This document shows positions 34,808 to 52,706 of a stretch of DNA of 64,000 nucleotides, piece by piece. Under the pieces are notes generated by a model that ran no database searches, was not told the DNA's origin, and saw only the letters and a program-made list of their open reading frames with translations. Every line of letters starts with the position of its first letter. Position 1 is the stretch's first letter. The stretch is from Oceanospirillaceae bacterium (GTDB lineage: Bacteria; Pseudomonadota; Gammaproteobacteria; Pseudomonadales; Litoribrevibacteraceae): positions 124,001-188,000 of the forward strand of contig JADFAD010000009.1 of NCBI GenBank assembly GCA_015665455.1, given 5' to 3'. The translations under genes were made by a program, and so were the position numbers.

Positions 34808-34831
34808 AATATCTCCTGTGAGTAATAATGA

Positions 34832-36100
34832 TTACATCTCAGTATTTAAATGGATTACACCGTTCTTATCGTAGAATCCCATGGCATAGTGCTTAGGGCT
34901 TAACGCTTCATGAGCATTCGTATTATTATGATCGTAGGTCGAAAACGGCTTTTTATATTCACCGATGAGTCCTTTAACAGGATGAGGTAAATCCTCAAGC
35001 ATCCTCTTCAGATCCTTACGAATGTCTCGAATGGATTGCTCCGTATTCACCTGCTCTAACGTTGAGATCAATAACTTCGTTAAATCGTAGGCATGAATAA
35101 ACCCAGTGGGTGCATGAATGTCTTCTGCGGCGTGAATCTCATCTGGGAATAACTGGCGTGCCCTGTTTACAACCTCATGACCAATCCCATTGTCGGAGTT
35201 AGATAAAAACGAAAAATCCGTCTGAATAAATTCTAAATTCATCACTGAACGAGAATATCGGCTCAAAGACGAATAAAAAGAACCACCCGTTATCCCCCAG
35301 TGGCTACGAATAGGAATGCCCCTCGTTTTTTCAGAGCCCATAAGCGCTTCAATGATGATTTTCCCCTCTGGCGCGTTACCAACAAAGAAAACAACATCCG
35401 CGCCTGAGTTCTCAAGCGATTTAGCAATCAGTTTGGCTTCATGGACGCCTAAATTCCAATTAAACCAATGTTTACCAGCCGGAGACACACCCAACTCCTC
35501 CAACGTATTCATCATGGTTTTTAAGTTAGATTTGCCCCAACCCGTTTGCTCTAAGATAAGAAACGGTTTTTTGAACCCTTCTTTATTAACGGCTCTTTCA
35601 GAAATGAACGCACCGGCTCTTGAATCATCAATTGATAACCGGAACACCCAGTTTTCAGACGGTGTCGATCGAGTAATAGGGCCAGCGGCAGCCCAAGGAA
35701 CTAGCGTAAGCACCTCATTCGCGTTTATATAATCTTTATTGGCCAGTAACGGAGGGGAATGTAGACCACCAAACATCAATAAGCCTTGATCATCCGAAAG
35801 GAACTCTTCAATGTGCTTCTTACTTCTCGGCGTACTCCCACGGTGGTCTTTCCTTACGATTTCTAATGTCACATCACCAACCTTAAAATCTACTTCAGAG
35901 AGTGCAACACTGATTCCTTGCTCAATAGCATGCCCCGCGACTGCAGCGCCACCAGAGAGATCCGCATCTAAATAAATTTTTAGATGATTCGATCGATGTT
36001 GTTCGTTGTCCGGAAAGACATTTTCACCAACCACGTTGACTGAAAAAACAGCGCCAACCAAAAGAACAATACACCAATGTATGATTCCCTGTTTAACCAT
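34832..36100 (-). CDS. Periplasmic solute-binding protein, branched-chain amino acid (Peripla_BP_6) type
   Basis: A 422-residue exported protein with a signal peptide (hydrophobic residues about 7-25, cut near VVG-EN) and the type I periplasmic-binding fold seen in LivJ-like proteins: LKIYLDADLSGGAA, LLMFGGLHSPPLLA, NWVFRLSIDDSRAGAF and GADVVFFVGNAPEGKI are in register with that family. No permease or ATPase is encoded nearby, and the next gene is a sensor kinase, so a sensing role is likely. The ATG at 36100 follows AAGGAGG and is preferred over a codon five residues earlier. It is about 130 bases from the upstream response regulator. Confidence 0.85.
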   Translation of the reverse strand: MVKQGIIHWCIVLLVGAVFSVNVVGENVFPDNEQHRSNHLKIYLDADLSGGAAVAGHAIEQGISVALSEVDFKVGDVTLEIVRKDHRGSTPRSKKHIEEFLSDDQGLLMFGGLHSPPLLANKDYINANEVLTLVPWAAAGPITRSTPSENWVFRLSIDDSRAGAFISERAVNKEGFKKPFLILEQTGWGKSNLKTMMNTLEELGVSPAGKHWFNWNLGVHEAKLIAKSLENSGADVVFFVGNAPEGKIIIEALMGSEKTRGIPIRSHWGITGGSFYSSLSRYSRSVMNLEFIQTDFSFLSNSDNGIGHEVVNRARQLFPDEIHAAEDIHAPTGFIHAYDLTKLLISTLEQVNTEQSIRDIRKDLKRMLEDLPHPVKGLIGEYKKPFSTYDHNNTNAHEALSPKHYAMGFYDKNGVIHLNTEM

Positions 36101-36231
36101 ATTGCCTCCTTGCATATCAACATACTAAGATTAGCCAAGTTATTGAAAATCGTATGAGTTTCTTACCAATTTATTTTCAAATATAGGTGAACCTTCACTC
36201 TAAACAAACGTAAGAGTGAACTCACATTTGG

Positions 36232-37494
36232 TCAACAAATAAATAGCGTCACCACTTCATCGCAAGAAGTCTCAATGAATAGCAATCGATCAATCATTCT
36301 TTGAGTCAATACGGTGTCTACCGGCAAGAGAATTTGGCCTTTTGGCGTAATCAATGGTTGTGCTAATTTCATACCCGGCGTCAGTCCTCGGGGGCTCACA
36401 CTTCGAGTTGCACCGGAAATAACACCATCATCGCAGCGATCCATCATCAACAAAAAGTTGTCAACCAACTCAGGGTCGAATACCACTCCAGATTTCTCTT
36501 TTAATAACGTCCTTGCGCATCTAGGGGCTTCAGGCTTTTTATGAAATTGTCCTGAGATAAGTTTGTCATAATAGATAACAATCGAGTTAATTCGTGTTTC
36601 CAGTCTGTCTTGATCGGTATAGTTCGTTTGTTTGAGTTGTTGAATGGCGTTCACCACACCTTTTAATTGAGAATCAAGACCAATCAACGCTTTCCCGAGC
36701 TCAAAATGTTCCATCACTTGTTGTTGCTCTGCTTTTGAGTATTGATACTCACACTTTTTATTTAAGTCATCAGACAGCATTAACTTACCAATGGAATAAA
36801 ACCGCCCTATTAAATAACACTGGGTTTGCATACTTGTGGGTAAATTCAGGTACTTAGCAAACAAGCGTGCACTTTCAGCGACCCGTTTCGAATGTGACCA
36901 CTGCTCAGGTAAGCGCTGCTGCATCGATTGCATTAACATCAATAAAACACCACGACCGCGACTTGATATGCCTTCGGTCATATCCTTGTTGCCGTTCATA
37001 AGATCATGAGGTTCTTGAACTAAATCCGCTTGCAGCGTTTCAACTACAGGTTCTTTGGACGGTTTATCAGGCATGGTTTGTTTGGCATTTAATTCAGACA
37101 ACGCCGCTTTGACTTTGGAAACCAGTTGTTTGTTATTCCATGGCTTCTCAATAAATCCATGTACTCGCCCATCATTGATCGCCTTAATCATCAAGTCGTG
37201 GTCTGTGTAACCGGAAATCAGCATACGCACTGACTCAGGATAAAAATCATAGGCTCGATTCAAAACCTCAGCGCCATCAACATCGGGCATCCTCATGTCG
37301 GATAACACAAGGTCATAGTGATTCTTCTCAAGCATTTCAATGGCGGCCTTACCACCTAATGCCGTATGAAGAACAATAGGCTGGCCATGAAAAGTTCTCG
37401 ACAAGGATCTAAGAATGGCTGGTTCATCATCAACAACCAAAACAAGTTGTTTACGCTCACAGCCATAGTTAATTGCAGAACTTTGCGTATTCAT
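36232..37494 (-). CDS. Response regulator with degenerate HD-type output domain
   Basis: A 420-residue protein. The receiver domain (about 15-130) has the DD pair in VVDDEPAILR, the phosphoacceptor Asp in VLSDMRMPDVDGAE, and the conserved Lys in GFIEKPW. It is strikingly like the receiver of the sigma-54 regulator at 40946 (shared AINDGR and KPW blocks). The remainder resembles the RpfG/HD-GYP fold, beginning HSKRVAESARLFAKYLNL, but the HD metal pair is lost (IGRFYSIGKL where LLHDIGK is expected), so cyclic di-GMP hydrolysis is not expected. The ATG overlaps the flippase stop (ATGA) and has AAGGAGG upstream, so it is the last gene of the EPS left operon. Confidence 0.85.
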   Translation of the reverse strand: MNTQSSAINYGCERKQLVLVVDDEPAILRSLSRTFHGQPIVLHTALGGKAAIEMLEKNHYDLVLSDMRMPDVDGAEVLNRAYDFYPESVRMLISGYTDHDLMIKAINDGRVHGFIEKPWNNKQLVSKVKAALSELNAKQTMPDKPSKEPVVETLQADLVQEPHDLMNGNKDMTEGISSRGRGVLLMLMQSMQQRLPEQWSHSKRVAESARLFAKYLNLPTSMQTQCYLIGRFYSIGKLMLSDDLNKKCEYQYSKAEQQQVMEHFELGKALIGLDSQLKGVVNAIQQLKQTNYTDQDRLETRINSIVIYYDKLISGQFHKKPEAPRCARTLLKEKSGVVFDPELVDNFLLMMDRCDDGVISGATRSVSPRGLTPGMKLAQPLITPKGQILLPVDTVLTQRMIDRLLFIETSCDEVVTLFIC

Positions 37495-38780
37495 AAAACG
37501 ACCTCCTTGCGGCCATTAGAATGTGATTGATTCACTAAGATTACAAAGCCAATAATGGGTAACCATAGAAAACTAATTAATGTAGTAAGCAGCGCAAGAT
37601 CCATAGATAGAACAGGTCTTACACAAATTAAAATTACAGCCATAAGCAATACACAATAAAGAGACTGATAGAGTTCCCAAACCACCATTCCCTGGACCCT
37701 GAGTACGGTATTTGAGATATCCAACATCAACATCCCTATGGCACTAAAGCAAAGAACCGTAACCAAGGGAATTGCATCTTCCCATTGACCGCCAAACAAC
37801 AAATTAATGTAAATAGGCGCTATGACGGCTTGAATAACAAACGCGATGGACAGAACAGCGCCACCACCAAAGGCATATCGAATCACAGAGGACAGTTTGC
37901 CTTTCCTACGAGATTCGCTGAGGTATGGATACAAACTTGCGATGAAACCACTGCTCAATGACTGACTCAACCCTACACCACTGCTTTTAGCAAAACTGTA
38001 AAGCCCGAAAAGCTCTGGAGATAACAGACGACCAGCAAACAAAACATCCAACTGTAAACGTAAAACTTTAAGCATTTCACTTCCCAATACCTTACTTGAA
38101 AAGCTCAACAGCAAAGGCATATAAAAAGAACAGAACGCGGGCTTAAAAGTTTCAACTTTGGCCGTTATAAATATGGCGACCCAAACCCCTGCGGCTAACA
38201 ACTTGGCATAGGCAACGGACAGTAAGCCGAAGTCCAATAATAGAAGCAGTGCACCGCTTAAATTATCAACAACAATTGAAATCCCTGATGCAATCCCAAA
38301 AAAACGCATATTTCTAACTCGCTGAACCAGAAATACCTTCACAGTTACGATGGGGTAAAGTAAATGGCTGAAAGACATTATGATTAATAGAAGTGTCAGC
38401 TCTTCATTGTCGTAGAATCGTGCAATAACCCCCGATACAGCAACCTGAAAAATAAGCAAAGCTATACACACCAACCACTGCAGCGTGATGGCATTACTCG
38501 CATAACCTTTCAAGTCTGAAGCATCGCACTGAATAATCTTTGCACCAATGCCCAGCCGAGAAAAAACACGGATCAACTCGTGGCAAACCAACGCCAGCAT
38601 CACTGTGCCGTATTCAACAGGAGTAAAGTAAGCTGCAAACACGATCAGCGTCACGATTCTAGATGCTCTAGCCATTACTTCAGACACCATCATCCACGAT
38701 GTCCCTTTAATGAGACCCGATGTTCTCTCACATATCATCGCAACGTCATTTTTGAGTTTATGTAAACAAGGGAGACTCAT
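37491..38780 (-). CDS. Wzx-like polysaccharide flippase (MATE/PST family)
   Basis: A 429-residue protein with 12-14 hydrophobic helices and no soluble domain. GTSWMMVSEVMARASRIVTLIVFAAYF near residue 26, then EYGTVMLALVCHELI, are typical of lipid-linked oligosaccharide flippases (Polysacc_synt). LSPELFGLYSFAKSSG is another family block. It would move undecaprenyl-linked repeat units to the periplasm for the Wzy-like protein at 47575. The ATG overlaps the preceding gene's TGA by four bases (ATGA), supporting the start. The next gene overlaps again, so this run is translationally coupled. Confidence 0.85.
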   Translation of the reverse strand: MSLPCLHKLKNDVAMICERTSGLIKGTSWMMVSEVMARASRIVTLIVFAAYFTPVEYGTVMLALVCHELIRVFSRLGIGAKIIQCDASDLKGYASNAITLQWLVCIALLIFQVAVSGVIARFYDNEELTLLLIIMSFSHLLYPIVTVKVFLVQRVRNMRFFGIASGISIVVDNLSGALLLLLDFGLLSVAYAKLLAAGVWVAIFITAKVETFKPAFCSFYMPLLLSFSSKVLGSEMLKVLRLQLDVLFAGRLLSPELFGLYSFAKSSGVGLSQSLSSGFIASLYPYLSESRRKGKLSSVIRYAFGGGAVLSIAFVIQAVIAPIYINLLFGGQWEDAIPLVTVLCFSAIGMLMLDISNTVLRVQGMVVWELYQSLYCVLLMAVILICVRPVLSMDLALLTTLISFLWLPIIGFVILVNQSHSNGRKEVVL

Positions 38781-39703
38781 AAAGAAACACCCATTCTTGC
38801 ACGAATAGAATTATAGAAACGCTTCAATTGGTTACGAGCTGTCAAAGGCACTTTTACTACACGCTTTTTCTTAGATGTTGACTCATCTAAAAACAATTCA
38901 TCATTTCTGACTAACACATCACTTTTTGTTATTGCTGAGTCTCTTAAGCGTCGCATAGTTGAAAACACAGGGTAAGATTTAAGAGATTGATCCAGCAACG
39001 CCCATAGCTTTTCATAAAAGTCTTCTTGACGATCAAATAACCACCAAGTGCTGCGGACTGCCGTAGTAAGTTTGTGATGTACTATATAGAGCGAATAATC
39101 CAACAAGTTCGGTTTATACAAATCATGAAGCGGCCCCTGACTGTAATGACGAATGTAATCATCTAACTCAACGTCCGAATTATTGTTCCAACGTGAATCA
39201 ATGGTTTTGATGAACGGTTTGCCGTGAGCCAAATGAATTAAGTGCCCGTTTTCTCCCCATCCGACCTGATCGGTTTCTGGAATTACAGTACAAGCGGATA
39301 AAAGCAAGGTATTGAAAAACTGTCTCACGTCCGGGCAATTTCGAACAATAATCACTCCTGAATTAAAGCGACCGCTGTATCCGTTGGCGAGATAAAGTGA
39401 TTTCCCTTCTTCACTTAGACTTTCAATATCAGGCGTACAATCACGAACTTGAGTGTCTGCGTCTAAACAAACAACCCATTGATGACCAACATTAAGAGCT
39501 TCTTGTATGAGTGCTATTTTCAACCAAACGGACTCTTTTCCTAAGGACGTTACTCCAGAACGAGTTACTCTTTGATAGCAATAACCACGATCATCACAAT
39601 ATTTCTGATGACTGTCGAGGTTCTTACGGTACAGCCATTGATAGCCATTAAAGGCGAGAGAAAAAACCAATAAGCCGTCGTTGTTAACATCCTTATTTAA
39701 CAT
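38777..39703 (-). CDS. GT34-like (GMA12/MNN10) glycosyltransferase
   Basis: A 308-residue GT-A-fold enzyme. KYCDDRGYCYQRVTRS, then SVWLKIALIQEALNVGHQWVVCLDADT, carries the donor-binding DxD (DADT near residue 104). FNSGVIIVRNCPDVRQFF and the QVGWGENGHL segment match the galactosyl/mannosyl transferase GMA12/MNN10 family, uncommon in bacterial EPS loci but known. The basic C-terminus (RNQLKRFYNSIRARMG) may lie on the membrane. The donor sugar cannot be told. The start ATG has GAGGG upstream; it lies four bases after the GT2 gene. Confidence 0.75.
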   Translation of the reverse strand: MLNKDVNNDGLLVFSLAFNGYQWLYRKNLDSHQKYCDDRGYCYQRVTRSGVTSLGKESVWLKIALIQEALNVGHQWVVCLDADTQVRDCTPDIESLSEEGKSLYLANGYSGRFNSGVIIVRNCPDVRQFFNTLLLSACTVIPETDQVGWGENGHLIHLAHGKPFIKTIDSRWNNNSDVELDDYIRHYSQGPLHDLYKPNLLDYSLYIVHHKLTTAVRSTWWLFDRQEDFYEKLWALLDQSLKSYPVFSTMRRLRDSAITKSDVLVRNDELFLDESTSKKKRVVKVPLTARNQLKRFYNSIRARMGVSL

Positions 39704-39706
39704 GGT

Positions 39707-40738
39707 TTAGGCCCTCTTCTTTTGAGTTACCGACCGATTTACCAGAGTTAGACCACCTATAGCCATCATGGCAAATTTCTCAATCGGGGCATAAATAACT
39801 TTAGGTAGGAGCGATAAATAAGCACACATATAACTGCCGTATGTTCTTACTGGCTCATCACATAAAATCTTAGGGTTTGTAAAGATCGCGCCATGAATAA
39901 GTACGATCGCTTTCAAACCATCACCGGAGTGAACCGCCCTGCGAGCTAGATATCGTTTCTGATACGCTTCTGCAAGACTGTGCCACTTTTTAAAGAAGAC
40001 AGGGAATCTTGGTGTCATTTTTAAAGAAATATAACGCCAAGACTTCAACTGTTTTTCTACATCCGAGGACAAACCGCCCTCATTCACCCGATAGCACGTC
40101 AGTGCTTGAGGAATACCTTCAAACACAGCCCCTTCTTTTAAGGCACAACGTAACCAAAACTCCACATCCTCAGATTGACGCATGGTTTCATCAAAGTACT
40201 GATAATGCATATGGTTATGATAATAAACACGCTCTGACACTCTCTGTAATAACGAACGTCTGATCACAGGTGCAGATCCATTACCTACAGGGTTACGGCA
40301 ATATATATGCTCAGGTGTGATACCTTCGAGTTTCGGGTATTGACCAATACCAAGTTGCTCATTCTGTTCGTTCACAAACAACGAAGGTGAATAGCTGACA
40401 TCAATTTTTGGGTTGTGCTGAAAATGCGCATAATGTCGAACTAGCTTCTCTGGTAACCAGTAATCGTCTGCATCCAATAAAGCAATAAAGACGCCTCGGG
40501 CGGCATTAATACCAGAATTCCTGGCTGCAGCTAGCCCTTGATTATCTTGATTAACAATACGAATACGATAATCACAATAGCTTTGAAGAATGGATAAAGA
40601 GCTGTCCGTGGAACCATCGTTCACACAAATAATTTCGAAATTTTGAAAGGTCTGAGCAAGTACAGAATCAATGCAGGTATTTAGGTATTTTTCTACGTTA
40701 TATACTGGAATGACCACAGAAAAAATAGGAAGACTCAT
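39707..40738 (-). CDS. Family 2 glycosyltransferase, first gene of the left EPS operon
   Basis: A 343-residue GT2 enzyme. It shows FSVVIPVYNVEKYLNTCIDSVLAQT at the start, the nucleotide-binding ICVNDGSTDSS near residue 36, the DxD in IALLDADDYWLPEKL near 90, and SEDVEFWLRCAL, the likely acceptor-side ED. The C-terminal 100 residues contain hydrophobic helices. The ATG has GGAG at eight bases. A sigma-54-type promoter lies at 40775-40790, about 26 bases from the start of translation if +1 is 11-12 bases past the -12 box. The donor sugar is unknown. Confidence 0.9.
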   Translation of the reverse strand: MSLPIFSVVIPVYNVEKYLNTCIDSVLAQTFQNFEIICVNDGSTDSSLSILQSYCDYRIRIVNQDNQGLAAARNSGINAARGVFIALLDADDYWLPEKLVRHYAHFQHNPKIDVSYSPSLFVNEQNEQLGIGQYPKLEGITPEHIYCRNPVGNGSAPVIRRSLLQRVSERVYYHNHMHYQYFDETMRQSEDVEFWLRCALKEGAVFEGIPQALTCYRVNEGGLSSDVEKQLKSWRYISLKMTPRFPVFFKKWHSLAEAYQKRYLARRAVHSGDGLKAIVLIHGAIFTNPKILCDEPVRTYGSYMCAYLSLLPKVIYAPIEKFAMMAIGGLTLVNRSVTQKKRA

Positions 40739-40774
40739 AGGTTTTGCTCCATAAATAAATATATTTATAAACAG

Positions 40775-40791
40775 AGCAAAGCGAATGCCAA
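40775..40791 (-). promoter_or_regulatory. Sigma-54 promoter of the left EPS operon
   Basis: On the minus strand TTGGCAT-N5-TTGCT gives GG-N10-GC exactly, the -24/-12 layout. It precedes the GT2 gene by about 35 bases and lies downstream of the sigma-54-dependent regulator on the same strand. Only the last base of the TGGCAC box differs from consensus. Confidence 0.75.
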
Positions 40792-40945
40792 CGGCAGAGA
40801 GAGCATCTAACCGATTGTTTTATATAACCTTATAATAAAGCTAATGAATAAAGTCTCTTATTTTTTTCTTAAATTAAAAATTTTTTTGCAAAATCAAAGT
40901 CAACGTGAAAAATACAGTTAATACAACAAACCAACAATAGCCAAT

Positions 40946-42496
40946 TTAATCTTTCCAGCTTTGAATCTTTCTATACAGAGTTGAAGGACTGACCTCAAGT
41001 AAACTGGCCGCCTTCACAACATTCCCTTCACAGGACTTCACTGCATTTTCGATCGTAATTCGCTCAACCTCATGCAAAGGCGTCACACATGCAGAGATCT
41101 CACCGACGGCAGCTGAAGCGCTGGCTACATCATTTAAGGATGAACCCGTTAAGGACGACTGATTCAGTGAGGACGCGAGCGATTCATCCAACATAGAACC
41201 AGAATTAGTGGATCGATTTATCTCTGACGAGCTGTTCGAGTTCACCTGTTGAAGTCCAACGGTCGATGCATTGCTGTTGTCTCCGCCCGAAAAGCCCAAA
41301 GCGATTTTAATGTCCTGCTCTGCCACTAGCGGCCCTTCTGACATAACCACGGCACTGTAAATGGCATTTTCCAATTGCCTTACATTCCCCGGCCACCTAT
41401 ACCCTTCAATAAAGCGTTCTGCTTCTTGAGAAAAGCCCACTAGGATTTTATCTTCTTTCTCAGTAAAGCTTTGAAGGAAATGCTGAGCCAGTAAAATCGC
41501 ATCACTGTCTCGATCAATCAATGAAGGCAAGTTAATAGAAATCACGTTTAACCGATAATATAAATCCTCTCGTAACTTGTTATCGGCGATCGCCACCAAA
41601 GGGTCTCGGTTGGTCGCACACACAAAACGTATATCAACCTTTTCTACTCTATTACTTCCCACTTTCTGGAACTCACCCGTCTGAATGAATCTTAATAGCT
41701 TGGCCTGTAAACCGATGTCCATTTCAGACAACTCATCCAAAAACAGTGTTCCGCCATCCGCCAAACTTGCGGCACCATCTCGATGATTAATCGCGCCTGA
41801 GAACGCCCCCTTTAAATGACCGAATATCTCAGACTCCATTAACTCACCTGGTATGGCTGCGCAGTTAATTGCAATGAAAGGCATAGAACTGCGCTTACTA
41901 ATGCTATGAATTGCTTGTGCGGCGACTTCCTTACCCGTACCACTTTCACCAGTAATGAATACGGAGGCACTGCTCGGCGCTGCGCGTTCGAGTGAATTGT
42001 AAATAAACTGCATTGCTACAGAAGAACCGACAAACCCCTCAAACTCTTCTTTCATGATGCTTTGGTATTGAGATAAAGAACGACGAAGAAGGGCTCGCTC
42101 AGCCACCACCTGCTGCGTATTAATTGCGTGTTCAATGGTTTGAACCAATTGGGCCGCATCCCAAGGCTTATTGATGTATCCCCAGATACGGCCGTCATTA
42201 ATGGCCGACATTACAGAGTCATTATCACTGTAACCGGAGAGAATGATGCGAACCGTCTCTGGGTAACGATCAGCAATAATGGCCAACAACTCAGCGCCAT
42301 CCATCTCTGGCATTTTCATGTCTGAAATTACAACATCAACAGGCGATTCTTCAAAGATCTCCAGCGCTTCCTGAGCACTGCTCGCGAACAAGCATTCTGC
42401 TTGAATGTTCCTCATCACACGGCGCAATGCCTGAAGTATCGATATCTCATCATCAACGAACATGATTCGAGCTTTATTAATCAAAGGTGAATCCAT
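40946..42496 (-). CDS. Sigma-54-dependent response regulator (NtrC family)
   Basis: A 516-residue activator. The receiver (about 1-130) has DDE, phosphoacceptor Asp in VVISDMKMPEMDGAE and Lys in GYINKPW. The AAA+ domain has Walker A GESGTGKE near 185, the sigma-54-contact loop GAFSGA near 229 (consensus GAFTGA), Walker B GGTLFLDELSEM, and an R-finger region. A Ser-rich linker (about 430-470) leads to a Fis-type helix-turn-helix ending ASLLEVSPSTLYRKI. The ATG has GGAG at seven bases. It stands between two divergent EPS units, all four of which carry sigma-54 promoters, so it is the obvious regulator. Confidence 0.93.
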   Translation of the reverse strand: MDSPLINKARIMFVDDEISILQALRRVMRNIQAECLFASSAQEALEIFEESPVDVVISDMKMPEMDGAELLAIIADRYPETVRIILSGYSDNDSVMSAINDGRIWGYINKPWDAAQLVQTIEHAINTQQVVAERALLRRSLSQYQSIMKEEFEGFVGSSVAMQFIYNSLERAAPSSASVFITGESGTGKEVAAQAIHSISKRSSMPFIAINCAAIPGELMESEIFGHLKGAFSGAINHRDGAASLADGGTLFLDELSEMDIGLQAKLLRFIQTGEFQKVGSNRVEKVDIRFVCATNRDPLVAIADNKLREDLYYRLNVISINLPSLIDRDSDAILLAQHFLQSFTEKEDKILVGFSQEAERFIEGYRWPGNVRQLENAIYSAVVMSEGPLVAEQDIKIALGFSGGDNSNASTVGLQQVNSNSSSEINRSTNSGSMLDESLASSLNQSSLTGSSLNDVASASAAVGEISACVTPLHEVERITIENAVKSCEGNVVKAASLLEVSPSTLYRKIQSWKD

Positions 42497-42732: not shown

Positions 42733-42768
42733 ATGGTTTCCTTAAACCTAACCAGAAAGGATGTCATC

Positions 42769-44016
42769 GTGAGAACCGAAAACTTGATGCCATATTTGGC
42801 AAGTTCCAGAAAGCCCATTGACCGCTTTGATCGGGCTTTGGCACTCATTCTTCTAATTTTATGCATTCCCATCGGCGCCTTAAACACGGTGCTCGCGGTG
42901 TTACAGGGAAAGTCCATATTCAAGTATTCAACTAAGTTTGATATTACTGGCCATCCCGTACATTTGAAGCGATTCAATTGCGGGTGGTCAGTACACAGCA
43001 TAAGGCTATGGGATGTGTTGAAAGGACGTTTCGCGTTCTGTGGCCTTCCACTCTTTGATGAAAGATTGGAAATCCCGTTACTTTCTCATAAACGATCTTC
43101 TGAGATGAAAACCGGGCTCATCAGTTTGTACGGTATTCATCAGCAAATCGGTCTAATGGAAGCAGATACGGAACAACTGCTCGAAGAACAGTTGAAATGC
43201 AATCAAGTTAAGGCGCACCTTAGATTGCTGCTAAAAGGAACCTTATGCAACTTACTGTATAAGAGAAACTTACCATCGCCCGATCATTTTTATCTCTTTG
43301 GTATAAAGATCAATAACCAAACAAAAGCCAAAGCCATTCAATGGATCACTCAGCCACGAAAGAAACACTGCAACATCGGTGTATTCGTTAATGCGCATTC
43401 AATGAACTTGGCCGTATCAGACCCTACATTTCAGGAAAATGTAAACAAGGCCGACCAAATATTTGCCGATGGTTCCGGAGTGAGACTGGCAGCAAACCAT
43501 CTAGGTATATCGTTAAAAGACAACATTAATGGCACAGACCTGTTACCTCATTTGTGTAAATCAGCAATTAAAAAGCATCTATCGATTTATTTACTCGGTG
43601 CAGAACCCGGTGTCGCGAAACAAGCCAGTAAAAATTTAACTAAACGCTTCCCTAAACTGCATATTGCAGGTACGCATCACGGTTTCTTTGAGGCAAATGA
43701 GACAGAAGATGTTATTAAGAAAATTAACGCCAGCCAATGCAATATTTTATTAGTCGCTCTAGGCTCTCCGATTCAAGAAAAGTGGCTGTTGGATAACAGA
43801 GATGCATTGCACTGCAGAAATGCCTTAGCCGTCGGAGGCCTTCTAGACTTTTACGCAGAAAAGATATCCCGTGCGCCTCGATGGATGCGAGAAATCGGGA
43901 TGGAATGGGTATGGCGATTGATTCAAGAACCGGGCAATAAGTGGAAACGCTATGTACTTGGTAATCCATTGTTTCTATTAAGAATGTACTTCCATAAAAA
44001 GGAGAGTCACCTATGA
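42769..44016 (+). CDS. WecG/TagA (GT26) glycosyltransferase fused to a degenerate phosphoglycosyl transferase domain
   Basis: A 415-residue protein. Residues about 172-410 are a GT26 domain: VFVNAHSMNLAVSDP, FADGSGVRLAANHLGI with the catalytic-type Asp, INGTDLLPHLC, YLLGAEPGVA and LLVALGSPIQEKWL. Residues 15-165 copy the shape of a monotopic phosphoglycosyl transferase: PIDRFDRALALILLILCIP membrane hairpin, LWDVLKG (compare INVLKG), ending KTGLISLYG (compare SGLTGLWQ). The catalytic Asp-Glu dyad is absent; Val75-His76 stand there by alignment. The GTG at 42769 has AAAGGA upstream and is the first start after the expected +1. Its stop overlaps the next ATG. Confidence 0.8.
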   Translation: MRTENLMPYLASSRKPIDRFDRALALILLILCIPIGALNTVLAVLQGKSIFKYSTKFDITGHPVHLKRFNCGWSVHSIRLWDVLKGRFAFCGLPLFDERLEIPLLSHKRSSEMKTGLISLYGIHQQIGLMEADTEQLLEEQLKCNQVKAHLRLLLKGTLCNLLYKRNLPSPDHFYLFGIKINNQTKAKAIQWITQPRKKHCNIGVFVNAHSMNLAVSDPTFQENVNKADQIFADGSGVRLAANHLGISLKDNINGTDLLPHLCKSAIKKHLSIYLLGAEPGVAKQASKNLTKRFPKLHIAGTHHGFFEANETEDVIKKINASQCNILLVALGSPIQEKWLLDNRDALHCRNALAVGGLLDFYAEKISRAPRWMREIGMEWVWRLIQEPGNKWKRYVLGNPLFLLRMYFHKKESHL

Positions 44017-44627
44017 ACCTTAAAAACTATGCAGGTCTGCCTGAAGCGGCACAACGGATTCTCGCATTGATTGCACTGATACTGTTAAGTCCAGTACTGT
44101 TGATTACCATTGTATTAATCAAAGCAGAAAGCAAGGGACCTATACTGTTCAGCCAGGTAAGGGTTGGCGAACAAGGCAGACGCTTTTTAATGTATAAGTT
44201 CAGATCCATGTATCAAATGGACGATCCAAAATACATTGACCCAGCCACGATGAAAAGTGACCGAGACGGCGTTTGCAATAAGTACTATAACGACCCTCGT
44301 ATCACAAAGGTCGGTCGAGTCATTAGAAAGTTATCGATTGATGAATTGCCTCAACTGATTAACGTACTCAAAGGTGACATGGTTTTGATAGGCCCTCGCC
44401 CAGCCCTGCCTCAAGAAACAGAGCGATATCAGTGGTATATGCTTGAACGATTCAATGCAAAGTCTGGGCTTACAGGTTTATGGCAAGTATCAGGCCGCGC
44501 AGACACAACGTTTGAACAACAGATTGAACTTGATATTCAGTACGTCAGAGAGCGTTCTCTTTGGCTGGATCTAAAAATCATCTTAATTACCGTTCCTACC
44601 GTTCTATTAGGGAAAGGCGCTTATTAA
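44013..44627 (+). CDS. Monotopic phosphoglycosyl transferase (bacterial sugar transferase), EPS initiation
   Basis: A 204-residue enzyme that puts the first sugar-phosphate on undecaprenyl phosphate. A re-entrant membrane helix covers about residues 14-35 (ALIALILLSPVLLITIVLI), followed by KGPILFSQVRVGEQGRRFLMYKFRSM. The catalytic dyad is Asp110-Glu111 in SIDELPQLINVLKGDM, and GPRPALPQE and SGLTGLWQVSGR are intact. At this length it is the minimal PglC/WcaJ C-terminal type. The ATG overlaps the preceding stop, so it is translated with the degenerate homologue. The sugar is unknown. Confidence 0.92.
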   Translation: MNLKNYAGLPEAAQRILALIALILLSPVLLITIVLIKAESKGPILFSQVRVGEQGRRFLMYKFRSMYQMDDPKYIDPATMKSDRDGVCNKYYNDPRITKVGRVIRKLSIDELPQLINVLKGDMVLIGPRPALPQETERYQWYMLERFNAKSGLTGLWQVSGRADTTFEQQIELDIQYVRERSLWLDLKIILITVPTVLLGKGAY

Positions 44628-44937: not shown

Positions 44938-46212
44938 ATGCAAAACTGGATGAACAACATAGCATTGGTTATTGCCGTCAGCCTCCTATCATGTGGCTGT
45001 ACGCAGCATCATGCAGTTGTTTCTCCTGAAAACCCAAGTCAAAAATTATATGGAACACCTGGAGCCGCAGGCGATCAGTTCAGACACGGTGAAGCACCCA
45101 CTCATGTGTACGCAACGGATATTGATTGCTCAGTGTTTGCTGACGTAGGTGCACCGGTTAATTACTTAGCCGATATGCCAACCAACAGCTACAAAGGCAA
45201 CTTCGCAAAACACCTTAGTCGTCAATTAACACCGACCAACCCAGCCGATTCAATCGGTTTACCTTTAAGCCCTGGTGACCTAGTCGAATTAGTGATTGAG
45301 AATGGTGAAGGTTTTAATGGCAAGTACGTCGTCGACTCAAACGGCAACCTAAACATACCTTACATTCCACCAGTGAGAGCTATCGGCGAACCCCTTCATA
45401 AGGTGTCTCAGAAGATTGAGCTAAGCCTAACTAGAAATAGAATATTTCAACCGGCTTACAACTTAGTAAACCTACGTGTTTTGCAGTGGTCTGAAATCGA
45501 AGTATCGGTTGCAGGGGCCGTATTCGAGCCCGGTCGTGTTCGCATCAATACAAAGATATCAGAACAGATTCTTGATCAGCGCATCAATGCGCCAGGAGAC
45601 CACTCTTCAACTCGTATGATTTCTGAAGCAATACGAGCTGCATCTGGCATCAGACCGGACGCTAAGTTAGACCAAGTTATGTTGATTCGCGATGGCTGGC
45701 ATGTAGAGGTTGACCTGATGGGGATATTTACGGGCGAAAGCGTAAGAGACATCCCCCTAGTTGCAGGTGATCGCGTAATCGTTCCAAGTACTGGGTGCTT
45801 CCAACAGTATTTAGTTCGTCCTTCTCAGATCACACCAAAAGGATTCCGAGTGTTCTTATCAAATTTGATTGAGCCTGCAAGCAACAACAGCAGCGCTGCA
45901 ATCGGCCGTTTCAGCAGCAACTTACCTTATGGTTCACGCCTGCTTCACGCAGCGGTATCAGCCAACTGCGTAGGAGGGACTCAATTGACCGACGCACCAA
46001 GAAAGATTGTTCTTGCAAGTCGAAACCCAATCACGGGTGAGACCCAAGTCGTCGAGCAATCGATTGAACTGTTAATTCGTCAAGCACATCTGGATCAAAT
46101 CAATCCGTATTTGATGCCTAACGATGCCATCGCGTGTTACGACTCGGACGTCACCAATGTTCGTGAAGTAGCAAAATCCATCACTGAAATTCTACTTCCA
46201 TTCAACATTTAG
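44938..46212 (+). CDS. Wza-like outer-membrane polysaccharide export lipoprotein
   Basis: A 424-residue lipoprotein of the OPX (Poly_export/SLBB) family that forms the outer-membrane exit for EPS. The lipobox is LLSC, giving lipidated Cys19. The polysaccharide export domain starts LSPGDLVELVIENGEGFNG-like near residue 100 and DSNGNLNIPYIPPV follows. SLBB-type segments include VSVAGAVFEPGRVRIN and VEVDLMGIFTGE...LVAGDRVIVPS. Its length is closer to Wza than to short OPX. The ATG has GGAA upstream. It is the first gene of a five-gene run. Confidence 0.9.
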   Translation: MQNWMNNIALVIAVSLLSCGCTQHHAVVSPENPSQKLYGTPGAAGDQFRHGEAPTHVYATDIDCSVFADVGAPVNYLADMPTNSYKGNFAKHLSRQLTPTNPADSIGLPLSPGDLVELVIENGEGFNGKYVVDSNGNLNIPYIPPVRAIGEPLHKVSQKIELSLTRNRIFQPAYNLVNLRVLQWSEIEVSVAGAVFEPGRVRINTKISEQILDQRINAPGDHSSTRMISEAIRAASGIRPDAKLDQVMLIRDGWHVEVDLMGIFTGESVRDIPLVAGDRVIVPSTGCFQQYLVRPSQITPKGFRVFLSNLIEPASNNSSAAIGRFSSNLPYGSRLLHAAVSANCVGGTQLTDAPRKIVLASRNPITGETQVVEQSIELLIRQAHLDQINPYLMPNDAIACYDSDVTNVREVAKSITEILLPFNI

Positions 46213-46222: not shown

Positions 46223-47620
46223 ATGAGAAGCACAATTAAACCCGGCCACTTTCTTAAAGAATTCGATCCTAAGGATGCATGGCGCGCTCACTCAAAATCA
46301 AAGTACATCTGGGCAATGATTTTATGCTACCTACTGTTGGCGTTAATTGTATTTCTTTATCTTAAACAACAGCCAATATTTAGCAGTAACTTCTCGCTTG
46401 TTTTACCCGGGACAGGGCATTCAAGCAACTTTAATCTTGATGATGTCGGTCAGGCAAATTCGCAAACCAAATCGGCTTATGGCGGTTCTGGTTTTAGCCC
46501 AAGAGTGAACTACAAAGAAATACTTCGCAGTAAAGAAGTTGTCAACCAAGCGGCTTTTCTAGTTGGCATTGATGGCAAACAATTCAAAGTCCCAAAAGTT
46601 AAGCTAATTCAACAAACTTCCATCATTGAAATTGATGTCTTGGGTGAAACATCTGAGTACGCACAAAGCAAAGCAGCTGCACTGTATGACGCATTTCAAG
46701 ACAGACTGTCCCAACTTAGGCAAGATGAAACTCAACGCCACTACGAAAGCGTTGCAGAAGTACTTGATCATTATCGCATTCGTTTAGCTCGCGCAAGACA
46801 AGGTGTCATTGAATTTCAAGAACGTTCATTGCTTGTCTCTCGTGATCAGTGGGAGCAATTAACCTCACAGTTGACTGATCTTCAGCAAAAGCAAATGTAT
46901 GTCGCGGCCGATGCGAAAAGCAAAGAAGATTATGTACGCCAATTAAGCCTCGACTTGCGTATCTCGCCTTCCCTTGCAGGCCAAGCCTTCGCACTTCAAA
47001 GCGATACCTTATTTCAAAGTTACATGCGTGAATTGGATACCAGCGGCAGTCGCTTAAGTGAATACCGTTCACGTTGGGGTGAAAAACACCCAAAGGTTCA
47101 GTCTGAGCAAGGCCGCTTCCAAAAAGCAAAAAATATGTTAATGCAACGCAGCGTTAACATCGTAGGGCAGCAATCCGCTGAGGCTTTGTATGAGATGAGT
47201 TTACAAATCAGCCCCCACAGAGCTCAGCTTTTCTCAGACCTGGTGGAAAACTTTGCAACTCTGCAAGGCAAGTTAGCGGAAATCTCTGAACTGGCTCAAG
47301 CAGAACATAAACTGGACAGCACACTTAAAATCTACGCTCGTGAAATGGTTGAACTGGAGCGCTTAGAACGAGAAGTCCAATTGGCGGAAGCCGTCTATAC
47401 CTCGGCTGCCGCAAAGCTTGATGCATCTAAATCAGACATCTTCGCGTCTTACCCGATTGTTCAGTTGCTTTCACCCCCGTCTTACCCAAGAAAGCAGAAA
47501 AGTCCAAAACTTATACTTGCCATTGTTATTGGTCTTGGCGGGTTCATTATCATAACTATAGGATTCTTAGTGATATGGCAGCGCGACTACCTTATCAAAC
47601 GACTGCTGAAGAAAAGCTAG
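46223..47620 (+). CDS. Wzz-like polysaccharide co-polymerase without kinase domain
   Basis: A 465-residue inner-membrane protein controlling chain length and linking to the exporter. Transmembrane helices at about 28-48 and 430-452 bracket a long periplasmic coiled-coil domain. The Wzz entry (SSNFSLVLPGTG) and the C-terminal YPIVQLLSPPSYPRKQKSPK, the proline-rich motif before TM2, are typical of PCP-2 family members. The cytoplasmic tail is only about ten residues, so the BY-kinase domain of Wzc is missing, and no separate kinase or phosphatase gene is in the locus. The ATG has AGGGGTGATGAG. It overlaps the Wzy gene. Confidence 0.85.
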   Translation: MRSTIKPGHFLKEFDPKDAWRAHSKSKYIWAMILCYLLLALIVFLYLKQQPIFSSNFSLVLPGTGHSSNFNLDDVGQANSQTKSAYGGSGFSPRVNYKEILRSKEVVNQAAFLVGIDGKQFKVPKVKLIQQTSIIEIDVLGETSEYAQSKAAALYDAFQDRLSQLRQDETQRHYESVAEVLDHYRIRLARARQGVIEFQERSLLVSRDQWEQLTSQLTDLQQKQMYVAADAKSKEDYVRQLSLDLRISPSLAGQAFALQSDTLFQSYMRELDTSGSRLSEYRSRWGEKHPKVQSEQGRFQKAKNMLMQRSVNIVGQQSAEALYEMSLQISPHRAQLFSDLVENFATLQGKLAEISELAQAEHKLDSTLKIYAREMVELERLEREVQLAEAVYTSAAAKLDASKSDIFASYPIVQLLSPPSYPRKQKSPKLILAIVIGLGGFIIITIGFLVIWQRDYLIKRLLKKS

Positions 47621-48867
47621 TCTGGTTCAGTTTGATCCTGACTTATGTCTTCTTCACTATCGGCAGCACCTACGTTGTAGGCTGTGTTGTAGGCTGGATG
47701 ATCTTTGGCATCTGCATGCTTCGCACCTTCATTCATGGGAAGCCAGCTAACGGACAGATACCAATCATCATCTGGTGTTGGATACTCTCAATGTTCGTTA
47801 TGTTGATCGCGCTTCTTATGGCACATGCAGAGCAAGATTTGGGCTTAGGTAAAACCATTAAGTCCAGCATCGGTTGGGCAAAAGGTTGGGCCTTATTAGC
47901 ATTATTTCCAATGCTGGGTGCCTTTTGCAATATCCGCCCTCAATTGATCATCAGAGCCTGCTGTGTTGTCAGTACGCATTCATTACTGTTCCTTTTCATT
48001 GGTCTGGCGCTTTCTATAGTCGGCTTTTCAGGCCACCTATTCATCTCACCAATTAAAGCCATCGGCGGCCCAGGCGCAGACTTCTTTACTGTTAGCTTTT
48101 ATGCACTTAACCCAGAAACAGGTGCACCACGCTGGCGTTTCTTTGGTCCATGGGCGCCGGCTGCCGGCCTATTGAGCTGCGTTTATTTAGTCTTGTGTTC
48201 CCTTGAAACGGATAAGTTCTGGCGCAGAATGGGCATCGCCGGTGCCGTCGCTATCTGCCTATTTTGTCAGTCTCGTGCGGGCTGGGTTATTTTCTGCATG
48301 TTGATTCCTCTGTTAATACTGGATAAGCAACTGACCAACCCAAAACTTTGGATCTTTTCTGCACTGGTCATTTGTGCTGTTGGTTTATTAGGCGAAGCCG
48401 TGATCGAAGGGATTCTAAACACCTATGAAGAGATCAAACAAAGCCGACCAAAATCCACTCAGGTAAGAGCGGCACTTGAAGAAATCGCTCTACAACGCTG
48501 GGAATCTGAAGCACCGATATGGGGTCACGGTATTGTAGAGCCTGGGCCAAAAAGCGTTGAATTCATGCCCATAGGTAGCCACCACAGTTGGTTTGGCCTT
48601 CTGTTTGTAAAGGGACTGGTCGGTTTCGTCGCGTTAGCCGTGCCTATGGCCCTTACTGCCGCGTACCTAATAATGGAATCGTTCTACAGCAAAACGGCTC
48701 GTATTGCGTTCTTATTGCTGATCATTTTGTTTTGTTACAGCTTCACCGAAAACCTTGAAATTCTTACCTATATATTCTGGCCTGCACTGATTTGGCTAGG
48801 TATAGCGTTGAACCCACAGAAAAGGCATTTACTTGAAAGTAAGGATCACAACTATGAATATATCTGA
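47575..48867 (+). CDS. Wzy/O-antigen ligase-like membrane protein
   Basis: A 430-residue protein with about 11-12 helices and a large periplasmic loop near residues 275-340 (YEEIKQSRPKSTQVRAA, then WGHGIVEPGPKS... SHHSWFGLLFVKG), the standard layout of Wzy_C/O-antigen ligase proteins. GHG and HHSWF are commonly conserved in this loop. Here it most likely polymerises EPS repeat units, since no lipid A core genes are nearby. It begins 46 bases inside the co-polymerase gene in another frame; AGGA lies 11 bases before its ATG. Confidence 0.82.
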   Translation: MAARLPYQTTAEEKLVWFSLILTYVFFTIGSTYVVGCVVGWMIFGICMLRTFIHGKPANGQIPIIIWCWILSMFVMLIALLMAHAEQDLGLGKTIKSSIGWAKGWALLALFPMLGAFCNIRPQLIIRACCVVSTHSLLFLFIGLALSIVGFSGHLFISPIKAIGGPGADFFTVSFYALNPETGAPRWRFFGPWAPAAGLLSCVYLVLCSLETDKFWRRMGIAGAVAICLFCQSRAGWVIFCMLIPLLILDKQLTNPKLWIFSALVICAVGLLGEAVIEGILNTYEEIKQSRPKSTQVRAALEEIALQRWESEAPIWGHGIVEPGPKSVEFMPIGSHHSWFGLLFVKGLVGFVALAVPMALTAAYLIMESFYSKTARIAFLLLIILFCYSFTENLEILTYIFWPALIWLGIALNPQKRHLLESKDHNYEYI

Positions 48868-49939
48868 TGCATATTTGGTTGGTTATTATGGGATGAAAAA
48901 CAGTGGCGATGACGCGCTGTTGGCGGCCACCATCTGGGGAGCAAAAAACTTCCAAAATACAAAACATGTAAAAGCCAGTACGCCCATTCCGTTACTGTTA
49001 CGAGACACTGACCCATTTGAAGCTCTCATCAAAAATAAACAAAGTTTTCGCGGTCAGAATCGTCTTCTTAATTACAGAGAAGCGTTCAGTGCAGACAGAA
49101 TCATATTCGGTGGCGGTTCGGTGTTACATACCGCACAAGACATTAATATAAAACGCCACATGATGTCTCTTTCACAAAGCGACAACAACATAGCGGTGGG
49201 TGTAAGCATCGGACCGTTTAAAGATACGGAAGCAGAACAGGCTTGCATCAAGTTTCTCAATCAATGCGATTATGTGGCCGTACGTGACTTACACAGCTAC
49301 AAATTAGGTCGAGACATCGCGCCCAATGCAAAAATAAAATTGAGCTTTGATTTAGCACCTCTTCTTCTAAAGCATGACAGCTTCGAATTTAAGCCGATGA
49401 CTCGCCGAGGCATCGCTGTTTGTTTATGCCCAAAAGAACACGCCAAAAACCAGCCCGATTTAGAACATCAACGACTGGTTGAAATCAGCGAAGCGTTACT
49501 TGAAGTCTATAAACAAACGGGCGAGCCAATTCACCTAATAAACATCAACGGCCACTCAGAATTTGGTGATGACAAGGTTCATCAAGAATTGAAAGCAATG
49601 ATCGGTCAACAAGTGCCTTGCACCGTCGTGCCTTACGATCCAAATCCGTTTCGCTTACTTCAAAGACTGGCCAGTTATAAAGCCATAATAAGCATGCGAT
49701 TGCATGGCAGCATTCTTGGTTTCTTAGCCGATACCCCCGTGTTATCGCTTAATTATCACGAGAAATGCATTGGCTGGTGCGATCAAATTGGTATGCCACA
49801 GTCATTATCCATTGATGCAGAAGATGTAAATCATGAATCCATGGCTTTAAGTCTATTAAAAGGGTTGGAGCACGGTTTCGAAAAGCCACGCCTAACCGTT
49901 GAAGAATCCATTCAGAGATCGCTAATCAACTGGAAATAA
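48854..49939 (+). CDS. Polysaccharide pyruvyl transferase family protein
   Basis: A 361-residue enzyme of the WcaK/CsaB/AmsJ family that adds ketal pyruvate from PEP to a sugar of the EPS. Signatures are YLVGYYGMKNSGDDALLAA at the N-terminus, IFGGGSVLH near residue 85, and the C-terminal ISMRLHGSILGFLADTPVLS with LNYHEKCIGWCDQIG. The ATG at 48854 has AAGGATC eight bases upstream; a TTG seven codons earlier is less likely. Start lies within the end of the Wzy gene. Pyruvylation would give the polymer a negative charge. Confidence 0.9.
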   Translation: MNISDAYLVGYYGMKNSGDDALLAATIWGAKNFQNTKHVKASTPIPLLLRDTDPFEALIKNKQSFRGQNRLLNYREAFSADRIIFGGGSVLHTAQDINIKRHMMSLSQSDNNIAVGVSIGPFKDTEAEQACIKFLNQCDYVAVRDLHSYKLGRDIAPNAKIKLSFDLAPLLLKHDSFEFKPMTRRGIAVCLCPKEHAKNQPDLEHQRLVEISEALLEVYKQTGEPIHLININGHSEFGDDKVHQELKAMIGQQVPCTVVPYDPNPFRLLQRLASYKAIISMRLHGSILGFLADTPVLSLNYHEKCIGWCDQIGMPQSLSIDAEDVNHESMALSLLKGLEHGFEKPRLTVEESIQRSLINWK

Positions 49940-51083: not shown

Positions 51084-52706
51084 ATGAAGAAGAATAAAGT
51101 ATCTATGAAACAAACAGTGACGATTTGCTCACTGTTGGCTTGTGCACCCGCCATGGCAACCAGCATTCTTGACGGAGATTACACATGGACCTTTCTATCA
51201 GGCAGTGATTGGCCAATAGGCTACAATCAAAACACAGGTAAACCCGATAACCTTGTATGGGGCTATAACGATTACTCTGCAGATTTTTTTAACCGCATTA
51301 ATAATGCCCTACCAGAAAGAGAAGTGAATGAAGCCTTCTTAACCGATGATGCAGGCGCGAACATTCATCTAACGGAAGAAGCAGAAGTGTTTATCACGTT
51401 TGTACACGAAGGTGCTGGCTATAAAAACTCATTCGGATATTTCACATACGACGCAAGCAATCCACCAACAACGGCATCTGAAGTCAGTGAAACCATTATT
51501 TTTCCTAATTTGTCCTTTCCGCATCTAACTAACGGCCATCGTCTAAGCATTGGCACCTTCCCTGCTGGTACGTCCATTGGCTTTTTTATCGCTGCCAACG
51601 GGTTCTGGTACGACACTGGCGTTAAACCGTTCGCTGTACCTTATTACTATTCTCTAAAAGATTTAAACCCAGATCCAACCGACGAACTTCGCCAACATAA
51701 CGTACTACTGTTCGATGAGGAAGTAGACGAAGTCATTATTGGTTTTGAAGACTTACCTAGATCTTGGGGTGACAATGACTTTAATGACGCCGTTTTCACA
51801 GTAAGAGCCTCTCCTGGGTCTGCAATTGATACAACCGCTCTAACCACCATGCCTGATGCCGATGACGACGACGCTGATGGCGTCATCAACAGCGAAGACG
51901 AATTCCCGAACGACTATAACCGAGCAAGCAGTGCGTATTATCCATCCAGCGAAGATTACGTCACCTTAGCTTATGAAGATAACTGGCCTAATTTAGGCGA
52001 TTACGACATGAACGACTTAGTCATTCGTGAGCGACTTCAAACGGCCTTTAATGCTGACGGTGATATTACTGGATTCATTATTCACGGTTACATTGATGCT
52101 CGTGGCGCTGCCCACCATAACGGTTTTGCGTTACGCCTAATGGATCTCGCAGCCGCAGACGTTGATTCAGCGACATTAACGATCGACGGAGAAGAATACA
52201 ACAAGACGCCCGAAGAATTTCAAACCAATCCCGTGATCGTGCTCTGGACGGACAGCCATGAGTTCACAGAGACAAACGAAGGCGGAAGCTGCCAGCACTT
52301 CAACACGCGTAAAGATTGTACCGAATTTTCTCCAGTGCCGTTCACTTTAGACGTTACATTTGAGAACTATCAAACCACCTTAAATCATTCTGATATTGAT
52401 TACTTCATATTCAGAACGAACAACCGCGCTCGTGAAATCCATTTTGCCGACTATCCACCGACGGATTTGTTTGATCATAACCAGTTCGGCCGATTTGATG
52501 ATGATTCAGATCCAGAAACATCGCGTTATTTCAGGAATGATCAAAACTTACCTTGGGCATTGCAGATTAATACCGACTGGCGTCATCCACAGGAGTACAT
52601 AGATATCATTTGGGCATATCCAGATTATGAAGATTGGGTAGAGAGTTCTGGAGAGACAAACCAAGACTGGTTCGAAACCAGTGACTTGGATACACACTAT
52701 TACTAA
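51084..52706 (+). CDS. Secreted DUF4114/LruC-domain protein, EPS-associated
   Basis: A 540-residue exported acidic protein with a signal peptide cleaved after AMA (about residue 26). Its first half resembles DUF4114: a beta-rich domain ending in EDLPRSWGDNDFNDAVF near residue 226. A calcium-type acidic spacer DADDDDADGVINSEDEFP near 260 follows, then an LruC domain (YEDNWPNLGDYDMNDLVI near 302). Such repeated G-D-x-D-x-N-D turns suggest calcium binding. No sortase or PEP-CTERM tail is visible. Under its own sigma-54 promoter beside the EPS genes, it could be a matrix or surface protein; that is inferred. Confidence 0.8.
   Translation: MKKNKVSMKQTVTICSLLACAPAMATSILDGDYTWTFLSGSDWPIGYNQNTGKPDNLVWGYNDYSADFFNRINNALPEREVNEAFLTDDAGANIHLTEEAEVFITFVHEGAGYKNSFGYFTYDASNPPTTASEVSETIIFPNLSFPHLTNGHRLSIGTFPAGTSIGFFIAANGFWYDTGVKPFAVPYYYSLKDLNPDPTDELRQHNVLLFDEEVDEVIIGFEDLPRSWGDNDFNDAVFTVRASPGSAIDTTALTTMPDADDDDADGVINSEDEFPNDYNRASSAYYPSSEDYVTLAYEDNWPNLGDYDMNDLVIRERLQTAFNADGDITGFIIHGYIDARGAAHHNGFALRLMDLAAADVDSATLTIDGEEYNKTPEEFQTNPVIVLWTDSHEFTETNEGGSCQHFNTRKDCTEFSPVPFTLDVTFENYQTTLNHSDIDYFIFRTNNRAREIHFADYPPTDLFDHNQFGRFDDDSDPETSRYFRNDQNLPWALQINTDWRHPQEYIDIIWAYPDYEDWVESSGETNQDWFETSDLDTHYY

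Follow-up and report, generated by a model that had tools for sequence, protein, structure and literature searches.

A degenerate phosphoglycosyl transferase domain fused to a GT26 glycosyltransferase and its association with an intact phosphoglycosyl transferase

Introduction

Monotopic phosphoglycosyl transferases (PGTs) act through a nucleophilic Asp that forms a covalent phosphosugar-Asp intermediate. The locus described here raises the question of why a glycosyltransferase of the GT26 (WecG/TagA/CpsF) family should carry at its N-terminus a PGT domain that has lost this residue, directly upstream of a gene for a PGT that has kept it. The question bears on how soluble glycosyltransferases reach the rare, membrane-bound Und-PP-sugar and on the physical coupling of the first two steps of polysaccharide assembly. 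The gene lies in a 64,000-nucleotide stretch of DNA from an Oceanospirillaceae bacterium (contig JADFAD010000009.1, positions 124,001 to 188,000), hereafter the window, and its reading as a dead PGT joined to a GT26 enzyme beside an intact PGT comes from an original prediction made from the sequence.

The fusion gene and its locus

The open reading frame, both of its domains and the downstream PGT with D110-E111 are all present as originally described. The fusion protein has 415 aa when read from GTG 42769 and 427 aa when read from ATG 42733. By eye, AGAAAGGA was identified at 42754-42761, 7 nt 5' of the GTG, and the ATG is without a comparable upstream site, so the GTG looks the better start; residues of the fusion protein are nevertheless numbered with Met1 at 42733. 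The features of the fusion gene and of the intact PGT gene are as follows:

42769..44016, + strand: gene of the dead PGT-GT26 fusion, read from the preferred GTG (the longer version begins at ATG 42733)
42820..43272, + strand: degenerate monotopic PGT domain, about residues 30-180 (hhalign with controls; PDB profile search)
42838..42900, + strand: predicted re-entrant membrane hairpin with helix-breaking Pro46 (hydropathy and Pro column; AF2 helix 28-58, low confidence)
42991..42996, + strand: V87-H88, approximate site of the lost Asp-Glu beside a 39-41 residue deletion (alignment)
43282..44013, + strand: GT26 (WecG/TagA/CpsF) domain (PF03808, 200 bits; TagA 7mpk, E 5.8e-44)
43468..43470, + strand: D246, equivalent of the TagA catalytic base Asp65 (7mpk alignment)
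44013..44627, + strand: intact small monotopic PGT (PF02397, 213.6 bits)
44340..44345, + strand: D110-E111 catalytic dyad of the intact PGT (dyad in 20/20 aligned intact PGTs)

The intact PGT gene and the fusion gene overlap by ATGA, and AGGAG lies upstream of the former at 44000-44004 (by eye). Judged by its gene content, the locus around the fusion gene is a Wzx/Wzy-type exopolysaccharide locus, and includes the following:

37491..38780, - strand: Wzx-like flippase, upstream (PF13440/PF01943)
38777 and 39707, - strand: glycosyltransferase-like genes, upstream (by eye)
44938..46212, + strand: Wza-type polysaccharide export protein (PF02563)
46223..47620, + strand: Wzz-like chain-length protein, a weak assignment (PF02706 under cut-off)
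47575..48867, + strand: Wzy/O-antigen-ligase-like polymerase (PF04932)
48833..49939, + strand: polysaccharide pyruvyl transferase (PF04230)
start 49973, + strand: GT2-like gene (by eye)

Just past the polysaccharide genes, 51084-52706 encodes a protein with DUF4114 and DUF4842 (208 bits). Directly upstream of the polysaccharide locus, the stretch 32936-42496 holds, by eye, two-component regulators at 40946, 36232 and 32936 and a periplasmic-binding-like protein at 34832; these regulators may control the locus. Searches of the 4.85 Mb host genome identified one GT26 gene and three PF02397 genes above the cut-off, all three with the DELPQ dyad, and a search with the profile of fused domains described below (A6) found no second dead PGT domain in that genome.

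A PGT domain without its catalytic segment

The PGT similarity originally claimed for the N-terminal region is nearly invisible from a single sequence. PF02397 gave no match to the full fusion ORF at E up to 10 and reached 14.4 bits (E 0.029, under the gathering cut-off of 27) against the N-domain alone, and an NCBIfam search of the fusion protein identified no PGT match in the N-domain. BLASTP of the window N-domain against the downstream PGT was likewise unconvincing (E 0.038), and profiles were therefore needed. A profile of 17 N-domains (A3) matched a profile built from 14 intact downstream PGTs (A2) at 98.1%, E 1.2e-13, and a profile of 24 domains (A6) matched A2 in hhalign at 99.2%, E 2.1e-19, while none of 100 intact profiles with shuffled columns exceeded 18.9 and a reversed profile reached 20.1, against a true score of 124.5. 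Searched against PDB sequences, A3 returned seven WbaP/PglC chains at 1e-8 to 2e-7 with the next match at E 0.9, the best stretches being those after the hairpin; when the hairpin was removed, the later parts alone still matched the intact PGTs (98.7%, E 4.1e-16). PF02397 itself matched 13 of the 17 members at E up to 1 (best 3.5e-14), and identity to the window domain across lineages was 13-34%. The homology of the N-domain to PGTs, weak when judged from one sequence, is accordingly firm when judged from profiles with their controls.

To define what has been lost, 20 intact PGTs, 24 GT26-fused domains (the window domain and 23 relatives) and four domains fused to nucleotidyltransferase-like (NTase-like) proteins, described below, were aligned. 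Lys62, Arg64, Arg96, Arg105, Asp110, Glu111 and the GPRP block were present in 20/20 intact PGTs. None of the 24 fused domains has an Asp at nucleophile column 110, Lys62 (of the KFR block) and Arg64 are each missing from 23 of them, and in every one 39-41 of the columns that hold residues 63-110 of the intact enzymes are gaps. The GPRP block decays stepwise, its Arg remaining in 10/24 domains. At column 111 there is a Glu in two domains and an Asp in another two (L055 and L057), the latter being a single Asp, displaced by one column from the nucleophile and not followed by Glu. A DE dipeptide occurs in six of the 24 (the window domain, L007, L009, L010, L018 and L051), never at the place of the dyad, and its own place is common to relatives in two pairs among the six; nor did inspection of L145 and L146, which are outside the 24-row table, identify a DE at the dyad place. 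The loss of the dyad thus extends to the homologues, none of which keeps it elsewhere.

The manner of the loss was revised by this alignment. The original prediction had the dyad aligned with Val75-His76, and this pair, V87-H88 when counted from the ATG, does lie at or beside the dyad columns, with its exact column left uncertain by the shortening of the region; what separates the domain from intact PGTs there is, however, mostly a deletion of 39-41 residues. As aligned, the N-domain has lost the Asp nucleophile, the KFR block and the approximately 40 residues between them, and catalysis was most likely lost through excision of this segment rather than through the V-H substitution alone. An N-domain still active as a PGT through some other nucleophile is scarcely credible: there is nothing strong to put forward for it beyond D109-E110 of the window protein, which is not common to the other domains, and the lone Asp of L055 and L057, and it has to contend with the missing KFR Lys in 23/24, the missing nucleophile Asp in 24/24 and the deletion itself.

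Other parts of the domain have been retained. A hydrophobic hairpin is present in 24/24 fused domains (best 21-residue hydropathy at least 1.62), the hairpin Pro in 21/24 and two Gly in 24/24, and the PG-x-x-SLY block has survived along with the Gly positions of the core. In PglC the hairpin Pro is one determinant of topology and its replacement by Ala leaves the enzyme inactive; the authors of that study suggest that it takes part in polyprenol interaction (PMC6133551).

In an AF2 model of the window protein (11 rows) the GT26 domain was good, the N-domain was mostly at pLDDT <50 and the hairpin was at 58-66. A relative, L020, in which dead PGT, GT26 and intact PGT form a single chain, was modeled from 19 rows with a mean of 77 and a pTM of 0.52, blocks of its dead domain reaching 70-90 over residues 11-160; its alignment (A8) had the hairpins of the PGT rows trimmed, since alignment A7 split PGT rows onto the dead hairpin. 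The modeled dead domain consists of the hairpin helix, two strands, a helix, a strand, a helix, a strand and three helices, which is nearly the order of the chain's own intact PGT; it has one short helix less and is missing the section covering the catalytic region (H513-525, H542-549). The GT26 part of the model matched TagA 7mpk (Z 27.2, rmsd 1.4, 198 aligned) and the intact PGT domain matched PglC 8e37 (Z 20.2); all PDB matches from Foldseek/VIA fell on these two domains and none on the dead domain alone.

The GT26 domain retains the catalytic Asp and the Gln-Glu pair. D246, Q348, E349, R395 and R406 are present in 26/26 fused proteins and correspond in the 7mpk alignment to TagA Asp65, Gln167-Glu168, Arg214 and Arg224, the roles of the TagA residues being taken from PMC6493773; the Asp65 equivalent is also present in 65/65 plain GT26 proteins. 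Three further TagA positions are changed. The Thr37 column has Phe in 26/26 fused proteins (F218 in the window) and Thr in 14/65 plain ones. The column of Arg83, a residue placed close to the acceptor diphosphate (PMC6493773), has Asn in 26/26 fused proteins (window N264) and Arg in 44/65 plain ones. The Arg221 column has Arg in 13/26 fused versus 59/65 plain proteins, and in the other 13 fused proteins the Arg is missing and there is a Lys one position on (window N402-K403, 43936-43941). The fused clade has the signature FxN...N...NxNGTD (F218-D269 in the window, 43384-43539), of which NxNGTD is present in 26/26 fused proteins. Asn264 was considered as a marker of the fusion and dropped, as it is also found in five plain GT26 proteins (L084, L102, L114, L132 and L139) that the tree places together with the fused rows (a group of 31 rows, support 92/98); it marks the clade, not the fusion, and perhaps a different acceptor. 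The changes in the fused clade as a whole suggest a different acceptor or donor. The GT26 domain is probably active, an activity that we only infer given the changed Thr37 and Arg221 positions, and the changes at Thr37, Arg221 and Arg83 led us to lower slightly our confidence in the docking-plus-anchoring role discussed below.

Association with an intact PGT

At least 26 distinct fusions of a dead PGT to GT26 were identified, of which 25 belong to the window's class and one to an actinomycete, a fusion being counted only if the ORF also holds GT26, so that weak cases may be missed. They came from the window (1), a sample of relatives (6), a related-loci search (10), a class sample (at least 7) and a phylum sample (at least 2). 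In the sample of relatives the fusion was present in 7/194 genomes, including that of the window, and the related-loci search contributed six Colwellia, one Alteromonadaceae, one Austwickia sp. (Actinomycetota), one Chromatiales bin and one gammaproteobacterial bin. Searches with the dead-domain profile return mainly intact PGTs (in at least 136/369 genomes at E 1e-3 and at least 104/398 at E 1e-10); L058, a candidate for a lone dead PGT, was rejected on finding its DE dyad. The Austwickia fusion (L018:7932-9431) is nested among gammaproteobacterial sequences in the tree, and horizontal transfer is its likely origin; it adjoins what reads by eye as an ATP-synthase operon.

An intact PGT gene lies directly downstream of 16/26 fusions, and in another six (L019, L020, L053, L054, L145 and L146) the dead PGT, GT26 and PGT form a single chain whose third domain is a PGT with the dyad. 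An intact PGT is therefore directly downstream or fused in 22/26, and the arrangement first proposed for the window, a pseudoenzyme PGT fused to GT26 beside an intact PGT, is both real and conserved. There is no adjacent PGT at the remaining four loci (L018, L052, L059 and L060): in L059 and L060 a PGT lies 8-9 kb away on the opposite strand, and no PGT gene was identified in the 17 kb examined of L018 or the 20 kb examined of L052/L148.

In order to compare this with GT26 genes in general, we used a sample of 369 class genomes, of which 68 have GT26, and analyzed 71 GT26 regions together with seven fused regions and the window. Three short or sub-cut-off matches (G376:C1:1913464, G268:C366 and G277:C53) were left out and L140, L143 and L144 gave no row under the GT26 profile; there were 78 rows, 8 fused and 70 plain, the latter reduced to 65 by dropping five fragments. 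An intact PGT was scored as adjacent if it was within 200 bp downstream on the same strand, or fused. By this measure 7/8 fused versus 1/65 plain GT26 proteins have an intact PGT (Fisher p 3.9e-8, an optimistic value since related loci were treated as independent); at least 800 bp of downstream sequence was present for 63 of the 65 plain GT26 and <800 bp for two. Any monotopic PGT in the region was identified for 7/8 fused versus 13/65 plain GT26. In the GT26 tree the fused rows cluster, and five plain rows fall within or next to the cluster. One row among the fused ones, L084:3900-5390(-), joins GT26 to a live PGT and lacks the dead N-domain, possibly representing an ancestral or a reduced form. 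On a Sulfitobacter plasmid (H1), a single tblastn match piece spans both parts of a GT26-PGT chain.

The adjacency of 7/8 versus 1/65 and the six single chains support, at the level of gene arrangement, a coupling of the fusion to an intact PGT, and with the ATGA overlap they favor a role for the dead PGT as a membrane platform beside the live enzyme; the four loci without an adjacent PGT count against it. Those four loci would fit better if the dead PGT were a membrane anchor and nothing else, replacing a generic amphipathic anchor without recognizing the live PGT, the adjacency being a matter of operon logic. The hydrophobic hairpin in 24/24 domains agrees with such an anchor, as does the proposal that membrane contact is necessary for TagA activity (PMC6493773). 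We nonetheless consider an anchor alone rather unlikely, as the sections after the hairpin are kept (98.7%, E 4.1e-16), which goes beyond an anchor's needs, and a monotopic PGT directly downstream, or in the same chain, accompanies just 1/65 plain GT26.

Selection on the dead domain was estimated from six Colwellia loci (15 pairs, with dS near saturation in many of them). The dN/dS of the dead domain was 0.08-0.19 in the 13/15 pairs with finite dS; it was 0.08-0.13 for GT26 and 0.03-0.09 for the intact PGT without its hairpin; for the L145-L146 pair the values were 0.11 and 0.06. The dN of the dead domain exceeded that of GT26 in 15/15 Colwellia pairs. The dead domain is under purifying selection, evolving faster than GT26 yet constrained. 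The higher dN in 15/15 pairs, like the low identity (13-34%) that domains of other lineages have to the window domain, is what would be expected of a decaying relic, without a present role, of an ancestral PGT-GT26 enzyme that the downstream gene has replaced. Such a relic is very improbable, however, in view of the dN/dS values far below 1, the retention of the domain across many families of the class as well as by an actinomycete, and the same-size deletion in every aligned copy. Purifying selection, together with the hairpin Pro in 21/24 domains, instead favors the membrane platform.

A second type of dead PGT fusion

Six of the fusion loci also encode, downstream, an ORF of 450-495 aa that is NTase-like with a left-handed helix and has a C-terminal dead PGT (Pfam domain assignment for 4/6):

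L019, 9550-11025
L020, 9836-11266
L052, 5836-7320
L145, 6323-7681
L051, 1376-2836, - strand
L146, 3773-5131, - strand

The ORF directly follows the intact PGT in 5/6 loci; in L052 it is 1.2 kb past the fusion gene. Profile searches found no such protein in the 71 other GT26 regions or in the host genome. PF02397 matched the NTase-fused domain above the cut-off in L051 (38.3 bits) and L052 (27.1) and below it in L019 and L020. As a group, the four aligned domains matched intact PGTs at 95.4%, E 1.9e-8, and the dead domains fused to GT26 at 97.8%, E 7.6e-13, with shuffles reaching at most 23.3 versus 58.2, and the nucleophile Asp is present in 0/4. Nucleotidyltransferases have signature positions GxGTR and PK; by eye, both are changed in the NTase-like part of the L020 protein relative to solved nucleotidyltransferases, and the whole of this protein may be non-catalytic. 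Among its PDB matches are eIF2B subunits.

The NTase-fused copy is the strongest hint that dead PGTs are parts for assembling complexes. The PGT fold minus its catalytic segment might be a reusable, non-catalytic adaptor with which initiation complexes are built at the inner membrane, in GT26 and NTase-like versions, a generalization that we put forward tentatively and to which we give somewhat less than even weight. If it is true, the live PGT would be surrounded by its own dead copies.

Discussion

We regard it as fairly probable that the dead PGT is a membrane platform that holds GT26 beside the live PGT, so that Und-PP-sugar is passed on, combining docking with anchoring. The dead PGT would sit in the inner membrane as the live PGT does and would hold GT26 on the inner leaflet, in the live PGT's geometry and next to it; the live PGT would make Und-PP-sugar 1, and GT26 would add sugar 2 before this product diffuses off, within one assembly, whereby scarce Und-P would be committed to this exopolysaccharide. 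The least certain element is whether dead and live PGT would touch directly, as a pseudo-dimer, or share only membrane and lipid. Plain GT26 enzymes bind membranes without a dead PGT, which we counted against the platform. A built-in anchor would make sense because activation of TagA by membrane contact has been proposed (PMC6493773), and by analogy a fixed anchor could also keep GT26 active.

Pseudoenzymes are often allosteric partners of live enzymes, and the dead PGT might likewise form a pseudo-heterodimer with the live PGT that activates it or sets its sugar specificity. The single-chain fusions, which join dead and live PGT, agree with this general behavior of pseudoenzymes; small PGTs such as PglC are, however, active by themselves, and we consider an allosteric role improbable. 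The platform remains the reading that we prefer, and the natural dead-PGT fusions, some with a live PGT in the same chain, are ready-made test constructs for it.

In searches of open-licence papers, none of the titles and abstracts listed concerned a catalytically dead monotopic PGT domain, and no pseudoenzyme branch of the monotopic PGT superfamily emerged from them. An earlier mention is possible in the superfamily network paper of O'Toole et al. (PNAS 2021).

Among known systems, the GT26 step following a PGT has a parallel in HfsJ/PrmH of Alphaproteobacteria, in which GT26 acts on Und-PP-hexose after a PGT in holdfast/exopolysaccharide synthesis; HfsJ differs in that it runs as a 33 kDa tagged protein, and the available parts of both papers mention no fused PGT (PMC3900383, PMC11340318). 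With the GT26 enzymes WecG/TagA/CpsF the fusion shares the family profile, the fold, the catalytic Asp, the Gln-Glu and two C-terminal Arg, and differs from them in its N-terminal dead PGT, in Phe for Thr37 and Asn for Arg83, and in the loss of the Arg221 column in half of the fusions. With small monotopic PGTs (PglC; PF02397) the dead domain shares the hydrophobic hairpin with its helix-breaking Pro, a nearly matching order of secondary elements in the L020 model, the G-loop and the PG-x-x-SLY/PGLTGLWQ block, whereas the Asp-Glu segment, the KFR block and about 40 residues are gone. Bi-PGTs, in which functional domains are attached to the catalytic domain of a monotopic PGT (PMC10942596), resemble the fusion, as does the GT26-PGT chain of L084, in that a PGT-family domain shares one polypeptide with a second enzyme. 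Their PGT is catalytic; in the fusion described here that domain is dead, and a separate gene or a third domain supplies the live PGT. The window fusion, being without a catalytic PGT, consequently falls outside the Bi-PGT definition, and its six three-domain relatives do carry one.
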